Positions 12,964 through 53,535 of a stretch of DNA of 58,223 nt are shown one piece after another. The translations under genes were made by a program, and so were the position numbers. Source of the DNA: Aequorivita sp. (GTDB taxonomy: Bacteria; Bacteroidota; Bacteroidia; Flavobacteriales; Flavobacteriaceae); contig JAGXGE010000036.1 of NCBI GenBank assembly GCA_024637015.1, forward strand, positions 1 through 58,223. The letters run 5' to 3'. The notes under the pieces were generated by a model. The model was not told where the DNA came from and made no database searches. It saw only the letters and a program-made list of their open reading frames with translations. Numbering within the stretch: position 1 is the stretch's first letter; each line of letters begins with the position of its first letter.

Positions 12964-12991
12964 AAAAAAACCCTTCAGTTTTGAAGGGTTT
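12964..12991 (-). terminator. Terminator downstream of the tRNA-Met remnant
   Basis: On the minus strand AAACCCTTCA, loop AAAC, TGAAGGGTTT and a T-run. It directly follows the displaced tRNA 3' half (4 bases away), as a normal tRNA terminator would. Confidence 0.85.
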
Positions 12992-12994
12992 ATC

Positions 12995-13046
12995 GTAGCG
13001 AGAGGGGGGCACGATCCCGCGTCCGCCTCAGGCGGATATGAATCCG
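12995..13046 (-). pseudogene. Displaced 3' half of tRNA-Met
   Basis: 12995-13021 matches 13347-13373 of the intact tRNA-Met and its 3' flank at 26 of 27 positions: the acceptor 3' strand, the T arm, and the start of the variable region. 13037-13046 (TATGAATCCG on plus) is identical to the anticodon loop and 5' anticodon stem of the tRNA (13384-13393). Between them a 15-bp palindrome (13022-13036) replaces the 3' anticodon stem. The whole 5' half (acceptor 5' strand and D arm) is absent, so this cannot be a functional tRNA. The nuclease gene begins where the 5' half should be. Confidence 0.85.
13022..13036. repeat. 15-bp perfect palindrome at the nuclease/tRNA junction
   Basis: TCCGCCT-C-AGGCGGA, two 7-bp arms with one central base. 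It sits exactly where tRNA-derived sequence is interrupted and contains the nuclease stop codon (TGA, minus strand 13030-13028). Such G+C-rich palindromes recur in flavobacterial genomes; it may be a recombination scar or a cleavage target. Confidence 0.8.
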
Positions 13047-13309
13047 TCCGCGGTATATTTTGGAAAAACTGTTTTGTATATATATTCTCTTCCCTTTCCA
13101 GACTTCAGGAAATTTTCTCTTTGCATTGCCTGTTTTTTGGTTTTATGGAACTCAACTTCCAAAACCAGCCAAGGACGGTATTTCAGTGTATATCCTTTGT
13201 TTGAAAAATGGTTGTGGGAATAAAATCTTTGGATTAATGATGAAGAGTAACCAATATAGATTTTATGGTACTTTTTCGAATAAAGAATATATGTAACGAA
13301 TTCTTCCAT
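13028..13309 (-). CDS. GIY-YIG family endonuclease inserted at tRNA-Met
   Basis: 93 residues, a minimal single-domain GIY-YIG protein. YILYS (8-12) and KIYIG (16-20) form the GIY-YIG core; R27 in SLIQRFYSHN and E64 in MQRENFLKSGKGREYI supply the conserved Arg and Glu. Metal-dependent DNA cleavage is therefore expected. The ATG sits directly after the T-tract of the tRNA-Met terminator. The last residues (DGFISA) are encoded by sequence derived from a tRNA anticodon arm. No DNA-binding domain or partner is present. It resembles the stand-alone UvrC-like GIY-YIG proteins common in Bacteroidota, not UvrC itself. Function is inferred to be mobility-related. Confidence 0.88.
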   Translation of the reverse strand: MEEFVTYILYSKKYHKIYIGYSSSLIQRFYSHNHFSNKGYTLKYRPWLVLEVEFHKTKKQAMQRENFLKSGKGREYIYKTVFPKYTADGFISA

Positions 13310-13344
13310 AAAAAAATCCCCATAGAATTTATTCTTGGGGATTT
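13310..13344 (-). terminator. tRNA-Met terminator
   Basis: On the minus strand AAATCCCC, an inner AGAAT-AA-ATTCT stem, GGGGATTT, then T7. It lies 3 bases past the tRNA 3' end. The T-run abuts the ATG of the GIY-YIG gene. Confidence 0.9.
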
Positions 13345-13347
13345 AAG

Positions 13348-13421
13348 TAGCGAGAGCGGGGCACGATCCCGCGACCTCCGGGTTATGAATCCGACGCTCT
13401 AACCAGCTGAGCTACCTCGCC
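13348..13421 (-). tRNA. tRNA-Met (anticodon CAT)
   Basis: 74 nt, full cloverleaf on the minus strand. Acceptor GGCGAGG pairs with TCTCGCT (two G-U pairs). D arm GCTC/GAGC. Anticodon loop TTCATAA with CAT at 13387-13385. T arm GCGGG/CCCGC around ATCGTGC. Discriminator A; CCA is not encoded. The anticodon stem has an A-C mismatch next to the loop, which is common in this tRNA in the group. An elongator Met tRNA is most likely; a lysidine-modified tRNA-Ile2 with the same anticodon cannot be excluded by eye. Confidence 0.92.
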
Positions 13422-13467: not shown

Positions 13468-13497
13468 CAAAGATAGAAACAAAATTATCTGCCGCAA
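13468..13497 (-). promoter_or_regulatory. Promoter of tRNA-Met
   Basis: On the minus strand TTG (13497-13495), a 19-nt spacer, TATCTTTG (13475-13468), followed by CACCC. The leader between promoter and tRNA contains an imperfect GCCTACG/CGGCAGGC hairpin. Confidence 0.85.
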
Positions 13498-13625
13498 ATA
13501 TTAGGTTCTCTTTTTATTGAATTTATTTCGCCCTTCCAAGAGTTCTTATTAAATAAAAAATTTTCAATCTTTCATTTGAGGTTAAAATTAATATATATAT
13601 ATTGGGCATCAACTAACAGAAAGAT

Positions 13626-53273: not shown

Positions 53274-53305
53274 TTGGGTGAACTAGTATTTAAAGTCTAT
53301 TTTTG
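53274..53305 (+). promoter_or_regulatory. Promoter of the btuB riboswitch transcript
   Basis: TTG (53274-53276), 21-nt spacer, TATTTTTG (53298-53305), just upstream of the riboswitch. Confidence 0.78.
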
Positions 53306-53309
53306 CCAT

Positions 53310-53495
53310 GAATTTTGGTGAGCAGTTTTCATAACAAGAAAATGCTCTTAAAAGGGAATTTGGTTAAAAACCGAAGCTGTTCCCGCAACTGTAAGTCGGC
53401 CCAAAATATTTTGGGTGTGTATGCTTCAAAACCACTGTTCGTCTCGGCGGATGGGAAGGTGACACAAAAGACAAGCCAGGAGACCTGCCAATTTC
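53310..53495 (+). ncRNA. Cobalamin riboswitch
   Basis: Contains the conserved core: AAAGGGAA, GGT...ACC, GCTGTTCCCGCAACTGTAAG (53376-53395), CCACTG (53432-53437), GGGAAGG (53453-53459), and the B12 box AGCCAGGAGACCTGCC (53474-53489). The ends GAATTTTGGTG and TGCCAATTTC can pair as P1. It sits 41 bases before the TonB-receptor ATG. Adenosyl- or methylcobalamin binding is expected to reduce expression. Confidence 0.96.
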
Positions 53496-53535
53496 ATAAC
53501 TAAAATCATCAAACTTTCGGGATAAAGGTTGAATT

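Follow-up and report, generated by a model that had tools for sequence, protein, structure and literature searches.

A GIY-YIG nuclease gene between two copies of a tRNA-Met in Aequorivita: a probable minimal mobile element with relatives at tRNA genes across Bacteroidota

A 352-bp unit beside a tRNA-Met gene of Aequorivita is probably a minimal selfish mobile element, with a single-domain GIY-YIG nuclease as its sole gene and a tRNA gene as its home; we put the probability of this reading at about two in three. The unit lies in the window, by which we mean the whole 58,223-nucleotide stretch analysed (contig C10 of a 3.22-Mb Aequorivita genome), and seems to belong to a widespread and apparently undescribed family of very small tRNA-gene elements in Bacteroidota.

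The tRNA-Met unit and its empty sites in Aequorivita

An earlier note, made from the letters of the window alone, had described an intact tRNA-Met followed on the minus strand by a terminator, a GIY-YIG ORF, a displaced 3' half of the tRNA and another terminator. ARAGORN, Rfam, Pfam and alignment confirmed this order, with a promoter-like site at its head:

13468..13498, minus strand: putative promoter TTTG-N19-TATCTTTG, 5' of the tRNA-Met, found by reading the sequence
13347..13421, minus strand: intact, non-initiator tRNA-Met(CAT), the left edge of the insertion (ARAGORN; Rfam RF00005, 55.9 bits)
13310..13341, minus strand: terminator 1 (ATCCCC...GGGGAT plus a T run, from the sequence), abutting the start codon and within the inserted core
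13028..13309, minus strand: GIY-YIG nuclease ORF of 93 aa (PF01541)
12995..13046, minus strand: displaced, altered copy of tRNA-Met positions 29-75 (alignment to the tRNA)
13022..13036, minus strand: palindrome TCCGCC-TGA-GGCGGA, replacing ten tRNA bases after the anticodon (CATA) and containing the ORF stop
12964..12990, minus strand: terminator 2, which adjoins the tRNA itself in empty-site relatives (sequence and congener comparison)
12995..13346, minus strand: 352-bp insertion relative to the empty site, its breakpoints placed only to within the duplicated tRNA

The motif TTTG-N19-TATCTTTG (13498-13468) presumably corresponds to the Bacteroidota promoter consensus. A scan of the same genome for further full-length copies of the window tRNA-Met found none. 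Between the tRNA copies the ORF list also has a pair of overlapping ORFs (61 and 78 aa) on the antisense strand, and there is no room for an integrase; the earlier note had likewise described a unit with one 93-aa nuclease and no integrase. Elsewhere in the window, a cobalamin riboswitch was found at 53298-53506 on the plus strand (87.9 bits).

Aligned with a gap, the displaced piece was 81% identical to tRNA positions 29-75, and its last 27 bases matched the tRNA end at 26 of 27, as first noted. Its alignment score against the tRNA was 58, compared with 22 for the best other match in the window and a maximum of 28 among 40 dinucleotide-preserving shuffles of the window; the copy is therefore not a chance resemblance. 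A 15-bp palindrome, TCCGCCTGAGGCGGA (13036-13022), separates the two matching parts in place of ten tRNA bases and is one of two hairpins in the window that were perfect, with a stem of at least 6, a loop of at most 8 and a stem G+C of at least 60%. The ORF extends into the displaced tRNA, which encodes its last residues (ADGFISA), and its TGA stop forms the centre of the palindrome. Folding of the displaced copy did not favour the palindrome hairpin (z of -0.55 as DNA and -1.71 as RNA relative to shuffles). Among the matches listed for 28 congeners, the exact palindrome stands at a Met unit in four genomes (G000, G001, G004 and G021); a single copy elsewhere in G008 led us to reject the idea that it is confined to the element.

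The window protein is barely more than a catalytic domain. It matched PF01541 with E = 2.3e-14 and 53.9 bits, against a curated cut-off of 22.6, and has Y7, Y18, G20, R28 and E65, which include the catalytic Tyr, Arg and Glu of the GIY-YIG superfamily; in the Pfam search of this protein only GIY-YIG passed its cut-off. Among aligned relatives with a residue at the position, Y7 was conserved in 79/79, Y18 in 78/78, R28 in 77/78 and E65 in 75/75, and 74 of 80 proteins were 79-93 aa long (five were shorter and one had 117 aa). The median dN/dS was 0.13 over 259 pairs, with 75 of the 80 proteins kept, and the ratio was below 0.5 in all 20 disjoint pairs. The near-invariant active site and the low dN/dS together indicate selection for a working protein. 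By family profile, the nearest solved structures were the UPF0213 members 1zg2 (E = 2.8e-11) and 1ywl, followed by SLX1. With the window protein as the one query, 50,697 phage records gave no match; an Aequorivita initiator-Met protein, compared with plasmids, matched one Azospirillum record at 42.6% identity.

The insertion itself is seen by comparison with congeners. We used 28 Aequorivita genomes, the window's included, and a divergent START-domain gene to mark the place; this landmark was present in 27 genomes, 25 of these loci had one tRNA-Met, and 24 loci besides the window were compared at the tRNA-Met. Six of them (G020, G023, G017, G022, G003 and G016) are empty sites, in which a single intact tRNA is followed by the flank found 3' of the window's displaced half (109/138 to 139/154 identical). 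In five of the six the flank match starts no later than base 8, and in G003 it starts at base 20-22. By this comparison the unit is therefore a 352-bp insertion that duplicates a segment of the tRNA, and a relative with one tRNA and no insertion, for which the earlier note had proposed to look, exists in 6 of the 24 congeners. G021 alone among the 24 has a window-type unit at this site. Ten have an element-like terminator after the tRNA and no GIY gene, an arrangement that is ambiguous between relics and an older native terminator. In G006 the window flank was matched from base 69 onward, and the remaining six loci have different flanks. Relatives of the window protein are present in 16 of the 28 congeners.

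Between the window and G021, the terminator 1 region (13346-13310) is identical at 37/37 positions, and identity is 96.1% in the nuclease gene and 90.6% in the intergenic stretch 5' of the tRNA. Synonymous change amounted to 4 of 55.8 sites in the nuclease gene against 23 of 74.3 in the START gene (P = 0.0009), a contrast from a single species pair in which the upstream intergenic stretch is also fairly alike. This low synonymous change points to transfer. As a separate observation, the T arm of the tRNA-Met has at least four versions among the 24 congeners, some with the T loop GATCGTG and not TTCAAGT, and these versions do not sort with the downstream flank; the 3' half of this tRNA may have been exchanged repeatedly among the congeners.

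Small GIY-YIG genes at tRNA genes of many isotypes

From Pfam matches in 31 Bacteroidota genomes we picked by eye 59 small-ORF loci, all but one with an open frame below 200 aa, and 20 long genes; the 59 exclude additional units of tandem sets, matches of very short length and a few other loci. A tRNA or tRNA piece lay within 200 bp of the domain in 30 of the 59 small loci, including 26 with an intact tRNA, and all 31 intact tRNAs within that distance were on the same strand as the GIY-YIG gene. Within 2500 bp of the 20 long GIY-YIG genes there was neither tRNA nor piece (0/20), and none of 30 HU control genes had a tRNA within 1500 bp. The enrichment on which the earlier note had made its reading depend is found, with a tRNA or piece at 30/59 small loci versus 0/20 long genes. 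The other 29 small loci had no tRNA or piece near, and three small GIY-YIG loci of the window genome (L001-L003) had no tRNA within 1500 bp. Among 59 domains that have an intact tRNA, the nearest one lies downstream in 14. A family profile, built from tRNA-borne members, gave 46 tRNA-associated loci among the 58 best-scoring, which came from 58 different genomes, the window included (Fisher P = 4e-14 versus 0/30 HU genes). Relatives were present in 44 of 60 genomes of the family and in 74 of 118 of the phylum, and the adjoining tRNAs were those for Met (elongator and initiator), Arg, Val, Asn, Phe, Pro, Ser, Asp, Ala, Thr, Leu, Gly and Cys.

We then placed tRNA labels on a tree of 102 distinct domains, 85 of which are tRNA-associated. 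With 'no tRNA' as a state, the label changed 34 times, compared with a mean of 74.3 after shuffling (0 of 200 shuffles as low), on a tree of 76 columns whose forks are often weak and in which near-copies favour the figure; the 85 associated rows alone gave 27 changes. As judged from this tree, nuclease lineages cluster by tRNA isotype and sometimes switch. Seven small GIY proteins without a tRNA form a separate clade.

Palindrome class also follows the nuclease lineage. GC-rich hairpins occurred at 3.38/kb just after tRNA-associated GIY genes, against 0.33/kb more than 600 bp away, and at 0.78/kb after 17 GIY genes without a tRNA. One of four palindrome classes was present in 56 of the 85 tRNA-associated rows and none in 29, and over the 56 rows the class changed 7 times on the tree, against a mean of 25.5 and a minimum of 22 after shuffling. 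These classes were defined after inspecting the hairpin results, and the set of 79 loci described below is therefore the cleaner test. The position of the palindrome is likewise specific to the lineage: after the anticodon in Met units, in place of the anticodon arm in Val, Arg-tct and Arg-acg units, at the 5' edge of the anticodon loop in Arg-tcg units, in the T loop in Phe units (four Aequorivita loci) and in the variable loop in one Asn lineage. A unit at tRNA-Arg(CCT), L034, falls inside the Phe clade (SH-aLRT 96), whose palindrome CCCCGA..TCGGGG it carries; L152, at Arg(TCT), shares its CCTGCC palindrome with the Arg(TCG) units close to it on the tree; and L124, at Met and outside the Met clade, has no TCCGCC palindrome. 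These cases suggest that the palindrome travels with the enzyme and not with the tRNA. One exception is the Asn unit L114, which has a TCCCGA palindrome inside the CCCCGA clade.

For the 79-locus set, genomes of 84,980 species were scanned with an alignment of three Met-type proteins, and the best 80 of 119 relatives gave 79 loci, which were searched for a palindrome that the window had already shown. Of the 79, 74 have a Met tRNA or a piece of one (46 with an intact tRNA-Met within 200 bp and 28 with a piece only); four loci had neither and one lay at a contig edge. Fifty-five of the 79 relatives have TCCGCC..GGCGGA no more than 120 nt from the stop, and 24 lack it; excluding four Aequorivita loci, the figures were 70/75 for a Met tRNA or piece and 51/75 for the palindrome. 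In all 55 the palindrome was preceded by CATA or a one- or two-base variant, and in 35 of the 55 it started 17-18 nt after the stop. In 73 of the 79 a T run precedes the match by no more than 45 nt. One locus filed as Rhizobium (L246) is taken as contamination. Sequence patterns distinguished elongator from initiator sites in 69 of 75 rows, and the two kinds are intermixed on the tree, with 9 changes over weak forks. The clearest sign that a core moves between tRNA genes came from two comparisons with L237, which lies at an initiator tRNA-Met: L273, after an intact elongator tRNA-Met, is 86% identical to it, and L255, which lies inside an array and has arms of elongator type, is 92% identical. 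All three have similar terminators and leaders, and their tRNA arms are local.

Units also occur in tandem, with five at the tRNA-Val in G005 and eight of initiator-Met type in G148. In the Val array of G005 (L067, 1900-3550) the palindrome TCCCGAACTTGCTTCGGGA is reverse-complemented in later units, and one pseudo-tRNA has eight consecutive copies of TCCCGAACTTGCTTCGGGA; by its sequence the array would represent inversion and growth of the hairpin. At L069 (G005:C1:1604293-1605171) at least 11 tandem 86-bp copies of a tRNA-Pro pseudogene stand just before an intact tRNA-Pro, and at L088 (G008:C2) there are at least three. In both, a TCCCGA-N7-TCGGGA palindrome replaces the anticodon arm and the units have no GIY gene; they are possibly a non-autonomous derivative. 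Over the 28 Aequorivita genomes, TCCGCC-N0..5-GGCGGA occurred 88 times versus once for the reversed pattern, and TCCCGA-N7-TCGGGA 146 times versus four; many of the loci inspected seem intergenic and some are terminators.

Proposed cycle and alternative explanations

Taken together, the empty sites and the enrichment support the earlier note's picture of a minimal mobile element that entered at a tRNA-Met, rebuilt the tRNA and displaced its 3' half. That picture stands, and to it we add what the note did not contain: the palindrome, its link to the nuclease lineage, the arrays and the phylum-wide spread over many isotypes. We infer the following cycle. Read-through from the tRNA promoter would yield the nuclease, which would nick or cut the cognate tRNA gene at one set position, in Met close to the 3' side of its anticodon loop. 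A repair step that uses a donor copy would then insert the core and duplicate a tRNA segment, leaving the host with a working tRNA, and the palindrome left at the junction would be the recognition or end sequence of the nuclease. Recombination between tRNA copies would produce arrays and losses. Since the rebuilt tRNA is intact, it should stay cuttable, unlike a normal homing site, and arrays may be the outcome of its repeated cutting. That the nuclease is a homing enzyme for tRNA-Met genes, as the note had proposed, is plausible. The downstream position of the intact tRNA in some lineages fits the simple scheme less well. Counting against the element reading are the palindromes missing from part of the loci, the folding that does not favour the hairpin, the 29 of 59 small GIY loci without a tRNA near and the weak forks of the trees.

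Strong purifying selection and the existence of tRNA-free small GIY-YIG genes, both in the window genome (L001-L003) and at 29 of the 59 sampled loci, would also be expected of a small nuclease useful to the host, in DNA uptake, repair or upkeep of tRNA genes, that rides on tandem tRNA duplications while the second copy decays and gathers palindromes. We consider this unlikely: close relatives have empty sites, near-alike cores, each with the arms of the tRNA where it stands, occur at two different tRNA genes, and a palindrome at a fixed position that tracks the nuclease lineage is not a product of decay. The order of RNA, terminator and nuclease would also suit a toxin-antitoxin-like pair, in which a nuclease acting on tRNA is held by the altered tRNA copy as a decoy RNA. 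Type III toxin-antitoxin systems have such a layout, with a structured RNA, a terminator, a nuclease and tandem RNA repeats; the altered copy here is kept, its anticodon arm is replaced in a fixed manner, and tandem pseudo-tRNA copies occur. Yet some loci have no detected copy, in others the copy precedes the intact tRNA, and the window copy has no significant folding advantage over shuffles. We know of no GIY-YIG toxin of this kind and judge the pairing to be quite improbable.

A third reading concerns islands. In G004 about 18.5 kb separates the tRNA-Met from a displaced tRNA 3' half, which is followed by a GIY gene (L010), and this stretch contains a tyrosine-recombinase-like ORF, recognised by eye. 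The small units could accordingly be the collapsed remains of integrase-bearing islands that once sat in tRNA genes. It would then be necessary for the GIY-YIG gene to survive each time, across many isotypes and families, together with the palindrome and the arrays, and in the window the GIY ORF is the only one between the tRNA copies on the minus strand; we hold this origin to be very improbable. The same stretch bears on another point. Five loci (L010, L012, L013, L029 and L080) have no 5' tRNA half, and their tRNA piece begins at position 32-33. We rejected the reading that such units show the element's own left end at the anticodon, because at L010 in G004 an island with a recombinase-like ORF explains the arrangement. 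In G004, L196 (G004:C1:339900-359500) is a tRNA-Met island with tyrosine-recombinase-like, DNA-methyltransferase-like and large helicase-like ORFs, recognised by eye, and is perhaps a defence island.

The selfish-element reading can be taken one step further. It is possible, and we offer it tentatively, that these units form a new autonomous transposition class, in which a single-domain GIY-YIG enzyme of about 85 residues, acting with a palindrome specific to its lineage, inserts a 300-350 bp core into tRNA genes and duplicates part of the tRNA, which is thereby never lost to the host, and in which the same enzymes spread or maintain palindromes elsewhere in Bacteroidota genomes, as RAYT does for REP. 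If the element reading is right, many small Bacteroidota GIY-YIG genes (half of our sample), so far known by their domain only, would rank with the smallest mobile elements that are autonomous, and they would live on tRNA genes that stay intact. The nuclease would be linked to a palindrome and a tRNA gene in a way that can be checked in the test tube. The pseudogenes and arrays of tRNAs in Bacteroidota genomes, and tRNA 3' halves that have changed, could then have their origin in such elements, and other palindromes in these genomes may be affected as well.

Relation to known systems

In size and domain the window protein resembles the small GIY-YIG proteins of UPF0213/COG2827. The Ssn ssDNA nucleases of Neisseria are likewise small GIY-YIG proteins of similar size and domain, and to our knowledge neither these nor the UPF0213/COG2827 proteins have a tRNA context. 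REP/RAYT and IS200/IS605 pair a small HUH/Y1 nuclease gene with a lineage-specific palindrome. The Aequorivita unit is like them in having one small nuclease gene and a lineage-specific palindrome, with palindromes of the same class elsewhere in these genomes, but it has no HUH/Y1 transposase; its enzyme is GIY-YIG and is tied to tRNA genes. Integrative islands anchored at tRNA genes similarly have an intact tRNA at one edge and a displaced 3' half at the opposite one, and the restored tRNA and displaced 3' end are both present here. Such islands carry a tyrosine recombinase, whereas the Aequorivita unit has 352 bp, no integrase gene, a copy altered by a palindrome, and arrays in its family.

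Our search of open-licence literature found no description of tRNA-borne GIY-YIG elements of bacterial chromosomes, and papers elsewhere may differ; the parts of a GIY-YIG survey available to us had no passage on them (PMC1564403). The nearest system in behaviour, from the portions of the source that we consulted, is SegB, a free-standing GIY-YIG homing endonuclease of T-even phages whose gene lies beside tRNA genes of many isotypes and which is reported to cleave inside tRNA genes, to drive tandem amplification of tRNA and segB via microhomology, and to show no isotype preference (PMC13096335). The likeness extends to the GIY-YIG domain, the tRNA-gene neighbourhood and the amplification. SegB is phage-borne, whereas the Aequorivita unit resides in a bacterial genome and its protein was unmatched in phage records; and the unit has both a duplicated tRNA half and a palindrome, a combination absent from those portions of the SegB account (PMC13096335). 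The unit proteins are little more than the catalytic domain, with no separate DNA-binding region of the SegB/I-TevI type, and their lineages cluster by isotype, in contrast to SegB (PMC13096335). Nor does insertion destroy the target, if the tRNA gene is taken to be that target, since an intact tRNA is kept. Because the unit departs in these ways from the defining features of homing genes, of integrative islands and of REP/RAYT, we regard it as a new kind of element made from a known domain.
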